Positions 47,154 to 53,232 of a stretch of 64,000 bases of DNA are shown here, in pieces. Under the pieces are notes generated by a model. The model did no database searches, was not told the DNA's origin, and saw nothing but the letters and a program-made list of their open reading frames with translations. Source of the DNA: Natrinema salaciae. GTDB lineage: Archaea; Halobacteriota; Halobacteria; Halobacteriales; Natrialbaceae. Position 1 is the first letter of the stretch. Each line of letters begins with the position of its first letter. Both the position numbers and the translations under genes were made by a program. The stretch lies in assembly GCF_900110865.1 (NCBI RefSeq), contig NZ_FOFD01000003.1, positions 682,001 to 746,000 of the forward strand. The letters run 5' to 3'.

Positions 47154-47225
47154 GCCTGGGTAGCTTAGCGGTAAAGCGCGTCCTTGGTAAGGACGAGAGC
47201 CCGGGTTCAAATCCCGGCCTAGGCT
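47154..47225 (+). tRNA. tRNA-Thr(GGT), attachment site of an integrative element
   Basis: The 72-nt cloverleaf has GCCTGGG with CCTAGGC and discriminator T. The anticodon stem is CGTCC/GGACG with loop TTGGTAA (GGT), and the T-arm is GGGTTCAAATCCC. Its last 35 bases (47191-47225) are repeated exactly at 52499-52533. The gene stays intact because the element brings its own copy of the 3' half. The hairpin TGCGCC/GGCGCA at 47226-47240 may end the transcript. Confidence 0.94.
47191..47225 (+). repeat. attL (3' half of tRNA-Thr)
   Basis: These 35 bases start at GGACGAGAGC in the anticodon stem and end at the tRNA 3' end (CCTAGGCT). They are identical to attR at 52499-52533. The next base differs, which sets the limit of the repeat. 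Confidence 0.9.
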
Positions 47226-47655: not shown

Positions 47656-48324
47656 ATGAGCGAAACAGACACCAGTCATACGTATAGCGATCTGCACCAC
47701 TGCGACACGAACTATGCGACCAAGTTCTACCCGTGGGAGAAGGGGGTTGATGAGTATTGGAACGGCGATGAGACGTGGATGGATCCCGATGCGTTCCGCT
47801 TCTCGAACAAGAAAGCACAACTCACCTATCTGGAGCAACTTCATCGGGGTATCCGAAACGGCAAGCGGACGAACAAGCCCTACTTCACCCGCGCAGATAA
47901 TGTCGATCTCATCGGGAACGTCGCGTTCCAAATCGGGCTCACGTCCGCACAGGCGTCCTGTGCCAAGTCTGCGTACTTCTACGTCCATCCAGACCGAATC
48001 AAGGGGGAACGTAAGGACGTGACTGCTGTGGCCGTCTGCTTGTACGTGGCTGTCAAAGCAGGCCGGCCTTTCCATCCACAGAAGCACGATGAAAACGGCG
48101 TTCCACTGGCCGACCGCTATGGTCGGATGTTCGTCTGTGACCCGAGCGACATCGTAAGCCGATATGGCAAGGTACAACACCATCTCCGAAACGGAATCCC
48201 CAACTTTGCGGAGGAAGCCGAGCGCGAGCCGAAGTCAATACTCTCGATCGGCGAAGACCCCTTCCACGATGAAGTAGGCATCGGGGAGGGGGGTATATAT
48301 GGGTTTGACCATTCCTCTTGGTGA
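47656..48324 (+). CDS. possible one-cyclin-box TFB-like protein
   Basis: The 222-residue protein has no firm family. Residues of about 85-145 (IGNVAFQIGLTSAQASCAKS, AYFYVHPDRIKGERKDVTAV, AVCLYVAVKAGRP) follow the pattern of a TFB cyclin repeat. The chromosomal TFB at 37930 has the parallel run [40 protein letters not shown]. No zinc ribbon is present. Mobile elements of archaea sometimes carry variant general factors to steer transcription; here that is inference from pattern only. TATATA at 47590-47595 is upstream. Confidence 0.5.
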   Translation: MSETDTSHTYSDLHHCDTNYATKFYPWEKGVDEYWNGDETWMDPDAFRFSNKKAQLTYLEQLHRGIRNGKRTNKPYFTRADNVDLIGNVAFQIGLTSAQASCAKSAYFYVHPDRIKGERKDVTAVAVCLYVAVKAGRPFHPQKHDENGVPLADRYGRMFVCDPSDIVSRYGKVQHHLRNGIPNFAEEAEREPKSILSIGEDPFHDEVGIGEGGIYGFDHSSW

Positions 48325-48381
48325 GGACAAGGGGAAGTCGGTGAGAGTCCCCGGAACTTCTCCTCATATAACGCCCAAACC
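48302..48381 (+). ncRNA. structured RNA-like segment downstream of the TFB-like gene
   Basis: Nested pairing is visible: GGTTTG (48302-48307) with CAAACC (48376-48381), TGAGGA (48322-48327) with TCCTCA (48361-48366), and GAAGT (48334-48338) with ACTTC (48356-48360). The loop carries CGGTGAGAGTCC, and GGGAAGTCGGTGAGAGTCC (48332-48350) resembles the conserved core of cobalamin riboswitches. The rest of that riboswitch is not clear. TATATAT at 48293-48299 could be its promoter. It overlaps the last codons of the upstream gene. Confidence 0.4.
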
Positions 48382-48545
48382 TGCGAGAACGCGCTCCTTC
48401 AATCCGAAACTCTCCCGATTGGGTGTTCAAATCCTGCAAGAACGCGCCCGCCGACTCGGAGGCCCGGTTAAAGTCAGGGCTTCCCGCCGTTTCAGAGTCG
48501 ACAAGGCGAGACAGATTAATACTCTCGTTGCTGACTCATCCTCGA

Positions 48546-48854
48546 ATGACCATCCAAATCGTTCCTGAGGACTACAATTGGCGAAGTGAGACGGCTCGTG
48601 TCGGGGAGCAATTTACTCTCCCATACTACTCTACCGGTATCTCGATTTTCCCTGCCGACGATACCGGCGAGATCGTGACCGTGACGTATCTGAAAAAGCC
48701 CGACGAGGATGATGATGAAGGAAACGATTTCACGGTCAGACGAGATACTCTCAACTCTCCTGAAGACACTGTCGGCCTTCCTCACTATTCCTTGGGCGAG
48801 ACAGTTTGTCCCGGGCCCGACGGTGAAGGGGCGACAGTCTATTGGCTCGGATAA
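48546..48854 (+). CDS. small acidic protein, unknown function
   Basis: The 102-residue protein has a beta-rich look (FTLPYYSTGISIFPADDTGE, GLPHYSLGETVCPGPDGEG) and an acidic EDDDEGND stretch. I recognise no family. ATTAATAC at 48514-48521 is about 28 bp before the ATG and suits a leaderless start. It is in the cargo of the integrative element. Confidence 0.5.
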   Translation: MTIQIVPEDYNWRSETARVGEQFTLPYYSTGISIFPADDTGEIVTVTYLKKPDEDDDEGNDFTVRRDTLNSPEDTVGLPHYSLGETVCPGPDGEGATVYWLG

Positions 48855-48983: not shown

Positions 48984-50516
48984 CTAATCGAACAACTCTG
49001 CCGAGTCTACATCGAGAGCCGCTTCGTCCATCCTCTCGCCAATCTTGTCGATACTCAACCCAGTTCTTTCGGCTAAATCCATGTATGCGACGACGGATGC
49101 GCCCATGAATCGGCGCGCTTCAGCCACTACGTCTTTCGGATGGTCAAACTCCTGATCTAACACCTTCAGCCGACTGTTTTGGTCTAACACATCTGCGAGA
49201 TACTGATTCTCGTGAACAATGTCCCCCCTCAGCGAGTAGATGTCCTGTAGGAACTTCTGGATGTACTCTCTTTCGTACGGTAACCTATCGTGCAATATCT
49301 GACCACCACGCAATTTGAGTCGAAGGGTAATCGAACTCCCTGGCCCGACTCCTTGGAGAAGGAGCCCTTCCAGCCCGATGAGACAGTCAAGGAGTTGATC
49401 TTCGTAGAACCGTTTCGACCAGATTTCGTTGAACCGCTGAATTGAACGGGTGAACTGACCGTCCTTGTCAAGACGAATCCGTTGGCAGTGACGCTCCCAA
49501 AACTCAGTAAACTCTTCAACCGAATCTGGATACAGCAGGTATGCTTCTTGCCGTTGTGTTCGGTCTTTGTGCGCGTCTCCGATCACCGTGAAATCCGGAA
49601 TACCCTCTCTGAATTCTAGCCAGTTGGGCTCTCGCCGGAAGGTAGTGCCAACGACCAGATCTCCTGTTTCTGGGTCAGGGTCAAAGAGCCGAAGTGCTGT
49701 CGCTAATCGCTCTCCAACTTCTTCACCGGGGTCATAGAGAGTTCCTTCAGGTTCTCGTGCTGCTACCTCTGCATGGATTTTGTACTCACAGGCGTCAACG
49801 GGGTTTAGATTGAACTGCTCCCCTCCACCTGCTGAGGATGTATGGATTCCCCGCCTTTCCGAATCAGTGATAGGGCAGATATGAAGCGACTCGACCCGAT
49901 AGTAATTGTGCCGTCTTCGACGGAGTTCAAATTCCGAAGATAACTCAATAACTGACTCGTCGTCCCCGGGGATATTGAAAAGGTGAAGTGGAATTATGAT
50001 TTCGAATGTATCCAGCCCGGTGTCGTACTTCGGAAGCCAATGTTCCTCGTATGCCCGATTGAACCCGTCCTCCGTGACTACGTAGCCTCCTGAATAATCC
50101 ATCACTGTGCCAGCGAAGTTGAAAAGCGCGTTAACGTAGGAGAACAGGTTAGGCTCCTCAGGGGGCTCATAGTCTTCCGGTGCCCCGAGATATACGACTT
50201 CTTCGTCGTCGGGGTCAGCAGGTTCATCAAGACCAAATCCGTTCTCAGTCTCGTGCATCCACTCTGCGGTCTCTTTGAAAAACTCCTGCTGGCGTGAGGA
50301 GTAGAACGTGATAATCCGAGAAGGCTCGTCGATGATCTTCTCTTTTCTGTCCATCCGATCTCCTGCGGCAATTCGAAGTTTAGGAACGAAATCCTGCTCC
50401 TCACGAACGGTTCCAACAAAATCTTCCACACACTTTCTAATCCGCTCTTTCAATTCGCTATCCGAACTGCCCATAGGAGGACAAGTAACCAATTTGTCTT
50501 CAAACTGTGTTCCCAC
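48984..50516 (-). CDS. Apea-like HEPN domain protein
   Basis: The 510-residue protein has a long N-terminal region without known motifs. The C-terminal part (about residues 360-470) has the pattern of Apea-like HEPN domains: RFYEDQLLDCLIGLEGLLLQ, LRLKLRGGQIL, and SLRGDIVHENQY. The last holds the R-x4-H motif that forms the RNase site in HEPN toxins and defence effectors. It is divergently transcribed from the HD hydrolase in the same element. The start is GTG at 50516 or ATG at 50474; an 11-bp inverted repeat lies 8 bp before the former. Confidence 0.7.
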   Translation of the reverse strand: MGTQFEDKLVTCPPMGSSDSELKERIRKCVEDFVGTVREEQDFVPKLRIAAGDRMDRKEKIIDEPSRIITFYSSRQQEFFKETAEWMHETENGFGLDEPADPDDEEVVYLGAPEDYEPPEEPNLFSYVNALFNFAGTVMDYSGGYVVTEDGFNRAYEEHWLPKYDTGLDTFEIIIPLHLFNIPGDDESVIELSSEFELRRRRHNYYRVESLHICPITDSERRGIHTSSAGGGEQFNLNPVDACEYKIHAEVAAREPEGTLYDPGEEVGERLATALRLFDPDPETGDLVVGTTFRREPNWLEFREGIPDFTVIGDAHKDRTQRQEAYLLYPDSVEEFTEFWERHCQRIRLDKDGQFTRSIQRFNEIWSKRFYEDQLLDCLIGLEGLLLQGVGPGSSITLRLKLRGGQILHDRLPYEREYIQKFLQDIYSLRGDIVHENQYLADVLDQNSRLKVLDQEFDHPKDVVAEARRFMGASVVAYMDLAERTGLSIDKIGERMDEAALDVDSAELFD

Positions 50517-50770: not shown

Positions 50771-50786
50771 TCTCTAGTTATAGAGA
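50771..50786. promoter_or_regulatory. palindrome covering the start of the HD hydrolase gene
   Basis: TCTCTA (50771-50776) and TAGAGA (50781-50786) flank GTTA and end on the A of the start codon. With CTTAATA at 50755-50761 as TATA box, the palindrome lies between TATA and a leaderless start, a usual place for a repressor in archaea. Confidence 0.45.
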
Positions 50787-51331
50787 TGAGAGGTCTAGAA
50801 GAAGATGAAGAAATCGAACGAGCTATTCGATATCTGGTGCATTCGTTCGAATCTTCGGGAGATAACCCGAAGCCGGTGATTCTCCACAGTACAAGGGTGG
50901 GAATGAATCTTTACGACAGGGAGTATGAAAAGCGCATTGTTATCTCTGGCCTTCTCCACGACCTATTAGAGGATACAGATGTGACTTCCGAGGAGATTCG
51001 TTCGAAGTTCGGGACGGACGTTGCAGAAATCGTGGAAGCCACTAGCTTCGACGACAATATCGACGACTATCTCGAACGGTGCTACGATATCTATAAAAGA
51101 TGCTTTGAACTGGGAAGAAGTGCGGTAGTCGTTAAAGCTGCGGATATTTTAGATAACAGTGATTACTACAGCTTGGGAGACTCAGAAGAGCTACAAAAGA
51201 ACCAACTCAAAAAGATGGAATACTTCATTGACAAATCGGAACCATATATCGGGGAGGAAGACATATTTCAGGAACTCAATGACAAGTTCCCTATTGTGAA
51301 GAAACAGATGAAGAAAAACATCGAAAGTTGA
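50786..51331 (+). CDS. HD domain protein, SpoT/MESH1-like hydrolase
   Basis: The 181-residue protein has the HD metal site in the order seen in (p)ppGpp hydrolases: H34, HD at 58-59 with the following ED at 62-63 (HDLLED), and D120 in KAADILDN. There is no synthetase or TGS domain, so it is a stand-alone small alarmone-hydrolase type. Other nucleotide substrates, including cyclic or NADPH-like ones, are possible. Strong AT-rich codon use sets it apart from the host genes. It is divergent from the HEPN gene. Confidence 0.78.
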   Translation: MRGLEEDEEIERAIRYLVHSFESSGDNPKPVILHSTRVGMNLYDREYEKRIVISGLLHDLLEDTDVTSEEIRSKFGTDVAEIVEATSFDDNIDDYLERCYDIYKRCFELGRSAVVVKAADILDNSDYYSLGDSEELQKNQLKKMEYFIDKSEPYIGEEDIFQELNDKFPIVKKQMKKNIES

Positions 51332-51426: not shown

Positions 51427-52434
51427 CTAAATGTCCTTGACGTAGTCCCGCCGTCTCTCGGCTTTCTCCGCGCTTGACCCCTTATCATAGTGCTTGTCAA
51501 GCACTTTCCCGCTCATATTGACTCGCTCCCCAGTCACGTCCTTGGGCTGTCCCGCGTTCCGCGCCGCCGTGACGTAGCCCCGACGAAGGGCGTGCGGGCT
51601 GACCGAGCCGGGACACTTGCAAGAGGTATTCCACGACATAGCCTCGCAGTTCTCAGGTTCCCTGTCAAACGGGCAGTTCCCGCCGTTGTAGTAGCAGGGA
51701 CGGGTCGCCGTGTAGACGTACCGCTGAATAGTCGTCTCCACGATGTGCCCGCTCTTGGACGTCAGTAGCGGCTCTCTGCCGTGGTCGTCGGTGACGTCCT
51801 TCCGGTTCATACCTATGTAGTCGCAGACGACGTCGGCCACCTCTGGGGTTATCAGCACGTCCCGCTCGCTCCGCTCCTTGTTCTTGAGCGGCGTTCCTTC
51901 CGTAGGTCGATGGCGGAGTTCCAGCGCCGGACGGCCTTCGTCAAAGTCCCCGAGGTCGAGCGCCCGGAGACCGCTAAGACGCATCCCGGTCTTCCAGAGG
52001 AGTAGTAGAGTGACGTGCCGGTTACTGGCGTATTCGTACTTTTCGAGGAAGTCCAGCATCTCGGTGGCTTCGTCCCGCGTGACGAGGTCGTCACAGATTT
52101 CGTCGTTCTCGCTGACTGAGGGTATCCGAACCATATTGGCCATCCCGCGCGGGACTGCCGCGATGTGTTCGCAGAACTCGATGAACTGCTTGATGGTCAT
52201 CATATCCTGCCGAGCGGTGATGACCTTGACCTTGGACAGCCGGAACTCCTTGTACCGCTGGATGAGTTCGCTGTCGAGGTCGTTCAGATTCGTGAGTTGC
52301 TGGTCGTCCAGCCAGTCACAGAACTGGCGCAGGGACGTCCGGTAGTTCTTGAGCGTCTTCCGGGTGACGCCCGGCTTCTTGTCGTTGAGGAATCGGTTCT
52401 TGGCTTCGTGCGGCGGCGTCGGTTTCAGGCTCAT
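51427..52434 (-). CDS. tyrosine recombinase/integrase
   Basis: The 335-residue integrase has an N-terminal SAM-like core-binding domain (about residues 15-105) and a catalytic domain. The latter holds the first Arg in KTGMRLSGLRALDL, the His-x-x-Arg box SPHALRRGYVTAA and the nucleophile Tyr in LDKHYDKGS. A Cys cluster (CYYNGGNC...CEAMSWNTSCKC) before the HxxR box is typical of haloarchaeal integrases and may bind zinc. The gene is uninterrupted and lies beside attR, so the element may still be mobile. The ATG at 52434 is chosen; an upstream extension would run through attR. Confidence 0.92.
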   Translation of the reverse strand: MSLKPTPPHEAKNRFLNDKKPGVTRKTLKNYRTSLRQFCDWLDDQQLTNLNDLDSELIQRYKEFRLSKVKVITARQDMMTIKQFIEFCEHIAAVPRGMANMVRIPSVSENDEICDDLVTRDEATEMLDFLEKYEYASNRHVTLLLLWKTGMRLSGLRALDLGDFDEGRPALELRHRPTEGTPLKNKERSERDVLITPEVADVVCDYIGMNRKDVTDDHGREPLLTSKSGHIVETTIQRYVYTATRPCYYNGGNCPFDREPENCEAMSWNTSCKCPGSVSPHALRRGYVTAARNAGQPKDVTGERVNMSGKVLDKHYDKGSSAEKAERRRDYVKDI

Positions 52435-52498
52435 AGGCTGTCTGGGTACAGCCTGCGTAAACGGGTCTTCCGGGTACACAGGGCGTGAAACGCCCGGT

Positions 52499-52533
52499 GG
52501 ACGAGAGCCCGGGTTCAAATCCCGGCCTAGGCT
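52499..52533 (+). repeat. attR (duplicate of the tRNA-Thr 3' half)
   Basis: It is an exact 35-bp copy of 47191-47225, from GGACGAGAGC to CCTAGGCT, without the 5' half of a tRNA. It marks the right end of the integrative element. Confidence 0.9.
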
Positions 52534-53232
52534 CTTCACATTTTGTCGGCAGTCGCACGCAGAACTAGCTGTGAATGTCCTCTGCGTTCCCCTTCTCGCC
52601 GGTGGAAGTAGATGGGGTGGTTCAACGACCGCCCGCTCGTGAGAGACGACCACTGGACCGCGCACAACGGTGTTCGGCGTGTGGTCCCGCTCGAGCTACC
52701 CGGTAGCAGCGCTTGACACCCGCGGTCGAACCGCGAGCGTTGCGGACGAACGACGGCACGAACCGATCGAGGATCGGTCCGCCACCTGTCGAGGGCGGTG
52801 TGCTGCATACAGCGAATCTATGCAGCAGATCAGCATTGTTTGTTTCGCCCACCCGGAAACGAAACAACGGTAAAATCGAGCGTTCCTTGCGGGGAAAACG
52901 ATCCCATGGGAGGTCATAATCGGGATCGACATTCGCGAAACCGATGCGGTGATGATCACCGACGCGCTCGAGCCAGCGCGGGCTGTTGGCCGAACACATG
53001 GTCCGTTCTTCGAGCACCTGTTTCCGGATGTCCACGATCAGATGCGTCCTCCCGCTCTTGAGGAGGACGATCGGTCTCCAGCAGAGTCGGATTCCAATAA
53101 AATCCGTCATAGAGCGGCGGCCGCAGCGACGACCAGCCCGCCAATCCGACGCCGAGACCGGTTCGACCGCCCAATTCGACGCTTGGACGACAATCCTTTT
53201 TCTTTCCCGACACCACTGTCGAGTCGTACCGA
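52534..53232. other. 700-bp gap right of the integrative element
   Basis: I find no convincing gene. Overlapping frames exist on both strands (around 52620-53110 minus and 52900-53230 plus), but none reads like a known protein. The stretch may hold gene remnants left by earlier insertions at this tRNA. Confidence 0.35.

Follow-up and report, generated by a model that had tools for sequence, protein, structure and literature searches.

P4 and the PICIs are satellites of tailed phages. For the haloarchaeal virus HF2, a Haloferacalesvirus, the class II intergenic repeats are reported to be late-type promoters that are active in Hfx. volcanii without virus factors and whose mapped transcription starts lie 26 bases past the first T (PMC8707807; Russ et al. 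2021). The authors expect virus-encoded factors to act on the repeats, and candidates are only named (PMC8707807). In SNJ2, a haloarchaeal integrative element, a hairpin downstream of the rep gene is described as the origin (PMC13107129). Literature searches, with subscription journals largely outside their scope, returned nothing joining Haloferacalesvirus and a satellite, and nothing that, judged by title or opening of the abstract, describes elements of the kind presented here.

Here we describe a 5.3-kb element of Natrinema salaciae, contained in a window (the whole 64-kb stretch of DNA analysed). Its best explanation, which we consider probable, is a satellite-like element in which a promoter of the virus late type sits where a virus-related regulator gene ends and would transcribe a gene-free region. 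The preliminary description of the stretch at 48293–48381 had instead proposed a nested hairpin with a cobalamin-riboswitch-like core.

A probable late-type promoter at the end of a gene

The TATATAT box, noted only in passing in that description, emerges as the strongly supported feature of the 48293–48381 stretch. It is part of a 39-base segment, 48288–48326, that overlaps the last codons of the gene at 47656–48324 and is probably a promoter of the hafunavirus late type, resembling the class II intergenic repeats of HF2. On the forward strand, a G-run (48288–48293) precedes the TATA box and takes the position of the BRE sequence CGAAA proposed for haloarchaea (PMC4983044). It is followed by the TATA box itself (TATATATG, 48294–48301; weight-matrix score 36.2, leave-one-out 31.6), a CATT element (48310–48313; A17 conserved in 38/40 and T19 in 36/40 loci) and a predicted transcription start at 48320, placed 26 bases after the first T of the TATA box as in the HF2 class II repeats.

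Several comparisons support this assignment. First, in loci with a homologous gene, oriented to gene direction, the same element comes right after the stop codon. A weight matrix built from 40 loci, with HF2 not included, scores 15 or more at the stop codon, either across it or directly behind it, in 40 of the 54 distinct loci from haloarchaea (one duplicate, L076 = L029, left out), compared with 0/54 within the gene, 0/54 upstream, 0/53 at +400 and 0/54 on the other strand. When training sites were left out in turn, 35/40 still scored 15 or more, four scored 12.6 to 14.5 and one, out of register, scored −24.8. The ungapped consensus of the 40 loci is a G-run or C-run followed by TATATAAACCC..TT..CATT..GTGAGG, and the TATA box is directly abutted by a G-run or C-run in nearly all of them. 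In the 64-kb window, the matrix finds a single site scoring 6 or more, at 48290. The remaining 14/54 loci have no promoter after the stop; in nine of these, three-frame translation shows an ERKS/ERKA motif in the following frame, and loci of this type are arranged as in HF2, with a TFB-like gene and then an ERCC4-type nuclease. At six loci (L017, L021, L028, L085, L090 and L098) the TAA stop of the gene lies within the TATA box, so that gene end and promoter are fused, and three others (L080, L086 and L101) carry a pair of TATA boxes there, spaced by 20 bp.

Second, in the right arm of HF2 only two sites score 8 or more, and both are annotated class II intergenic repeats (33.0 and 32.4); the left arm has no site. 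There is one site in HRTV-27, one in HRTV-25 and two in HSTV-2, and none of 8 or more in HFTV1, BJ1, HCTV-1 or HVTV-1 (the latter two over their first 49.9 kb each). The elements and the HF2 class II repeats share the TATATAAA box, three AT blocks with CCC and CC between them, CATT at equal offset, a start (predicted in the elements) 26 bases past the first T and a virus-family setting. The window copy has the TATA box, the CATT block and the spacing of class II. However, it is a variant (TATATATGGGTTTG, not TATATAAACCCTTTA), with GGG where HF2 class II has CCC: it and its relative L031 carry GGGTTTGAC at the core, where many other loci have CCC. Because it lacks the CCC spacer and CCCTTTAC core, we call it class II-like and not a member of the class. 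The setting differs as well, as the promoter here occurs in integrative elements, behind a cyclin-fold gene and facing a gene-free stretch.

Third, a strict form of the promoter pattern matched nine times in 293 genomes, and its reversed control never. Six of the nine matches lie beside the cyclin-fold gene family; the other three have an integrase or a replication-like gene in the fetched stretch. A search of plasmids returned weak bacterial matches only, and an IMG/VR tailed-virus contig carries the same promoter in its structural operon. Two elements (L108/L119 and L111/L120) have the promoter and gene-free stretch but lack a cyclin-fold gene within the 18 kb that were fetched, and L119 has an HF2-type integrase; these elements might depend on a factor of another element or virus. 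At L114/L121 a small gene comes next after the promoter, and behind it one that we judged by eye to be replication-protein-like (PHEHVYFWID), with an HRTV-25-type integrase nearby.

The hairpin and the cobalamin-riboswitch likeness

The letters quoted in support of the riboswitch, GGGAAGTCGGTGAGAGTCC, are present at 48332–48350, as is TATATAT at 48294–48300; the stable nested hairpin and the cobalamin identity did not survive analysis. An outer pairing can be drawn between GGGTTTG (48301–48307) and CAAACC (48376–48381), and an inner one between AGGGGAAGT (48330–48338) and ACTTCTCCT (48356–48364), but the minimum-free-energy fold of 48293–48381 differs from the simple nest of three stems closing in order that had been described. 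Folding was close to that of dinucleotide shuffles for 48285–48390 (z −1.23; 26/200 shuffles as good or better) and 48293–48381 (z −0.83; 39/200), as for the transcript from the predicted start, 48320–48450 (z +0.54; 143/200 shuffles). The 5′ arm of the outer stem lies within the promoter, upstream of 48320, and would thus be missing from that transcript; it would remain in read-through from the upstream gene. The inner part, a local hairpin AGGGGAAGT...ACTTCTCCT (48330–48364, forward strand), is predicted in both the window and L031, is not better than shuffles and may be due to chance. Promoter symmetry, together with this one local hairpin, largely accounts for the nested hairpin.

A diverged cobalamin riboswitch, or another ligand-binding hairpin, retains practically no probability. 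In its favour are the short likeness of GGGAAGTCGGTGAGAGTCC and a covariance-model score for RF00174 of 10.7 bits (E 1.9, local), which is far under the gathering score of 31.5 and comes from a forced alignment with a 55-base insert. At gathering scores, Rfam finds nothing in the whole 64-kb window except three tRNAs, and 20 related loci gave no match to cobalamin RNA at E up to 5. A 411-base DNA query against 195 genomes of the order found one full relative of the region besides the window's own genome, 91% identical, in Halobaculum gomorrense DSM 9297 (L031). In this one relative the core-like sequence is broken, reading GTCGGTG-GAGCCCC, with GGTGAGAGTCC replaced by GGTG-GAGCCC. Stem changes in H. 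gomorrense are one-sided (G–C to G–U) and none is compensatory, a comparison that rests on two sequences in the window's subfamily, as downstream stretches are unalignable between subfamilies. With folding no better than shuffles, we rejected the riboswitch.

A cyclin-fold protein linked to the promoter

The gene whose 3′ end falls inside the claimed hairpin stretch (47656–48324, forward strand) encodes a 222-aa protein of PHROG_12649, a family of unknown function (E 2.4e-8; 24/24 alignment members belong to this family). AlphaFold predicts one confident five-helix domain (core pLDDT about 90). In VIA comparisons the model matches TFIIB (5fyw_M; Z 11.8, rmsd 2.0 over 94 residues), Pyrococcus TFB (1d3u; Z 10.7) and cyclin A (Z about 10), whereas Foldseek reaches no better than E 0.1, for Brf2, and ranks TFIIB, TFB and cyclins below it. 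Pfam gives no match at E 0.1 or better (TFIIB, E 0.29). The model thus shows a cyclin fold that comes closest to TFB repeats. The protein thus shares one five-helix cyclin-fold repeat with archaeal TFB and eukaryotic TFIIB. It differs in having that single repeat, with no match to a second repeat or to a zinc ribbon, and cyclins score nearly as well; lacking the second repeat and zinc ribbon, it is not a TFB member.

A single-sequence search across 391 genomes of the class finds homologues in 26, and a profile at E 1e-15 finds them in 21/170 and 15/125 genomes of two families. Weaker chromosomal matches to a profile of the element protein (E about 1e-4) were considered as host TFBs, a reading rejected on the five that were fetched from many listed (L136–L140): these are about 260 aa long and match over about 60 residues, and the three of them that were scanned have no Pfam or NCBIfam name. 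Proteins of this look are called RNA polymerase subunit epsilon in haloarchaea, and the five are possibly a host relative.

In viruses, the same family accompanies the promoter. The window protein, used as query against viral contigs, plasmids and phages, found nothing; the viruses were reached only through its HF2 homologue, HrrHF2_215, the single one in that genome (E 7.5e-30). A tblastn search with HrrHF2_215 of 50,697 phage records gave 53 matches, all haloviruses. Among the best 60 of 194 blastn matches to the promoter, 49 are halovirus records, every one of which is among the 53 with the protein, and the others are bacterial phages with 70% or less query cover. BLAST missed the promoter in four protein-bearing records, two each of HRTV-25 and HRTV-27; the weight matrix finds it in both viruses (32.9 and 21.4). 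Four haloviruses outside the 53 (two complete, two to 49.9 kb) have no promoter site of 8 or more. The 53 records represent one family, many of them near-identical or duplicate, so the number of independent linkage events is small. Taken with the 54 loci, sequence comparison makes a link of the promoter to this cyclin-fold protein family, in elements and viruses, well supported. The hafunavirus hypothetical proteins (PHROG_12649/HrrHF2_215) form one protein family with the element proteins; the virus copies are about 160 aa and are followed by an ERCC4 nuclease gene, whereas most element copies are 200–270 aa and are followed by the promoter. In HF2 itself the HrrHF2_215 gene is far from the late promoters.

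The activity of class II repeats in Hfx. volcanii without virus factors means that the cyclin-fold protein is not required for promoter activity. It also fits a rather unlikely reading in which the segment is an ordinary strong mobile-element promoter of haloarchaea, unrelated to the neighbouring protein, and the hairpin is chance. As that reading would have it, replication-like genes in L114 and a structural operon in L107 also follow this promoter. However, at 40 of 54 loci the promoter adjoins one protein family, promoter and protein co-occur in viruses, and away from this family the strict pattern hardly occurs in the 293 genomes. A protein family that accompanies the late promoter in both viruses and small elements is a direct candidate for a late-gene factor.

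The gene-free stretch and its repeats

Downstream of the promoter, the forward-strand stretch 48320–48545 is gene-free and, from comparison of contexts, predicted to be transcribed as a non-coding leader or non-coding RNA. Such a stretch follows the promoter in nearly all 19 contexts, and the next genes differ in kind and strand. A strong promoter facing a gene-free stretch makes a non-coding transcript from 48320 likely. The earlier, weaker suggestion that this may be some other RNA, perhaps belonging to the element, thus holds in part, as such a transcript is likely, but the predicted start falls inside the hairpin.

The stretch holds two copies of a repeat on the forward strand: CTGCGAGAACGCGC at 48381–48394, invariant in L031, and CTGCAAGAACGCGC at 48434–48447. 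In reverse complement, the repeat is similar to a motif of the HRTV-25 terminase leader, with a match score of about 11 (the value for the near-identical L031), under our threshold of 14. At two loci, L026 and L094, the protein occurs along with a repeat of the window type (motif i), but no promoter is detectable after the stop.

In the viruses, the distance from promoter to first late gene is 212–387 bases, and in several that gene is annotated as a putative terminase small subunit. Seven of 40 downstream stretches match terminase leaders of viruses at 14 score units or more; the controls give 0/40, 0/40, 1/39 and 0/40. The clearest shared repeat, CTCGATGCGGTGAATCA, occurs in haloferacalesvirus leaders and in elements L018 and L071. 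A motif dispersed over HF2 (L117 and L118), CTCGATGYGGTGAATCA (motif ii), has 28 sites within 4 mismatches in that genome, compared with an average of 1.9 for shuffled patterns, and seven within 2 mismatches, with none in the other viruses scanned. Its non-coding copies lie in leaders after several repeat promoters, and three sites are in sense: between IR1c and HrrHF2_215, between IR5c and ribonucleotide reductase, and between a class II repeat and a terminase-type gene. We attributed motif matches in the coding sequence before the promoter to codon likeness and disregarded them.

These shared motifs could mark a helper packaging site (pac- or cos-like), at which motif copies bind the hafunavirus terminase and the element is packaged. 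In the viruses, motif-bearing leaders separate the late promoter from the terminase small-subunit gene and are no more than about 1.4 kb from the genome end; elements have one to three copies; and L018 and the HCTV-7 leader share 18 consecutive bases. However, motif ii is found throughout HF2, which led us to downgrade this reading to unlikely, and its three sense sites run from promoter to gene, more like an operator or leader element. Motif copies also occur in both orientations.

Alternatively, the non-coding transcript could be a regulatory RNA against the virus, titrating a factor or pairing with virus mRNA. The promoter is of the virus late type, the window repeat runs antisense to the leader motif of HRTV-25, as L014 does to that of HSTV-2, and L018 matches in both senses. 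We regard this as distinctly improbable: L020, L071, L103 and L022 match leaders in sense, the window matches are short, and there is no strand-specific structure. Across the 40 loci, downstream regions are richer in dyads and repeats than controls, but the folding excess is equal on both strands (downstream versus reverse complement, p 0.47) and the window's own z is +0.2, and folding was therefore set aside as a sign of RNA.

A surplus on both strands alike is what DNA sites would give, and the gene and repeat-bearing stretch might instead form a replicon, with the cyclin-fold protein or another factor acting at an iteron or hairpin origin and the promoter merely transcribing through it. Inverted repeats are present in 17/40 downstream regions versus 4/40 in the gene, and direct repeats in 19/40 versus 9/40. 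SNJ2 offers a precedent, being a haloarchaeal integrative element in which a key gene is followed by a hairpin-bearing non-coding region, with the hairpin as the origin (PMC13107129). By contrast with SNJ2, whose Rep is of a distinct endonuclease family, the window protein is not recognizably an endonuclease and has no Pfam match at the E value given above; the part conserved across loci is the promoter; and in mean direct repeats the +500 region equals the downstream region (0.64 vs 0.60), although in fewer loci (12/39). We therefore hold a replicon to be quite unlikely, and favour the promoter with a non-coding transcript.

A 5.3-kb element with virus-like parts

The promoter and its gene lie in an element bounded by tRNA repeats. 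At the left end, a tRNA-Thr (GGT) gene (47154–47225, forward strand; Rfam tRNA, 70.4 bits) is the attachment site, and its last 26 bp form attL (47200–47225), a direct repeat 100% identical to attR (52508–52533), the second copy of the tRNA 3′ end, found by repeat search on the same strand. The annotated probable attP of HF2 is a tRNA-Thr too and shares GGTAAAGCGCGTCCTTGGTAAGGACGAGA with the window tRNA. At the other end, a tyrosine integrase gene recognized by Pfam (51427–52665, reverse strand; real start codon probably downstream of the ORF start) is of HRTV-25 (Laminvirus) type, the HRTV-25 integrase being its nearest among the viruses compared (32% over 332 aa, E 8e-60); it has no BLAST match to the HF2 integrase. 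Integrases of HF2 type are found in three motif-ii elements (L018, L020 and L023). As evidence of a helper, 32% identity is weak, since tyrosine integrases are widespread.

Between these ends, the gene-free stretch is followed by a small gene of unknown function (48546–48854, forward strand; 80% identical in L031 and 31% in L051) and by two cargo genes. One encodes a 510-aa protein of unknown function (48984–50516, reverse strand; 93% identical in L031) with no Pfam or PADLOC match, in which RGDIVH presumably resembles the HEPN R-x4-H motif. The other encodes an HD-domain protein (50786–51331, forward strand; PF13328, E 1.8e-8), also with no PADLOC match, and a role as defence cargo was accordingly set aside. 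Elsewhere, elements L039, L047 and L048 carry large cargo methylases 65–69% identical to HrrHF2_460 of HF2, which suggests gene exchange between elements and viruses.

No ORF of the window element matches virion proteins of HF2, HRTV-25, HRTV-27 or HSTV-2 (the last three to 49.9 kb). Among 1249 ORFs of 25 contexts there is no capsid, portal or terminase relative, a count in which distant virion genes could be missed because most contexts span only 14 kb; one ORF of L121 is similar to hypothetical late-region proteins of three viruses. The tRNA-Thr repeats, virus-like integrase, regulator relative, late promoter and absence of detected virion genes together indicate that the 5.3-kb element is probably a satellite-like passenger of hafunaviruses.

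Comparison with known satellites

On this reading, the promoter at 48288–48326 would start a transcript at about 48320 that runs into the gene-free stretch with its two repeat copies. During hafunavirus infection, the promoter, tuned by the cyclin-fold protein, would switch on the non-coding region; transcription, control by the protein, dependence on a helper and the role of the non-coding region are inferred. A broader proposal is tentative, and we lean somewhat against it: that haloarchaea hold a broad family of hafunavirus satellites, each with a cyclin-fold relative, a late promoter and a region matched to terminase leaders, and that PHROG_12649 is the missing late-gene transcription factor. 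If true, PHROG_12649 would be a TFB-like factor with a single cyclin fold, working with a TATA box flanked by a G-run or C-run. Shared motifs would let helper and satellite be paired by sequence, and a haloarchaeal satellite system would extend a theme known from bacteria.

As expected of a virus satellite, the window element has an integrase, an attachment site and no detected helper virion genes. Like P4 and the PICIs, it is small, has its integrase at a tRNA and carries virus-like regulatory DNA. Unlike them, it is archaeal, has only a putative helper and places a non-coding region under a promoter of the virus late type.
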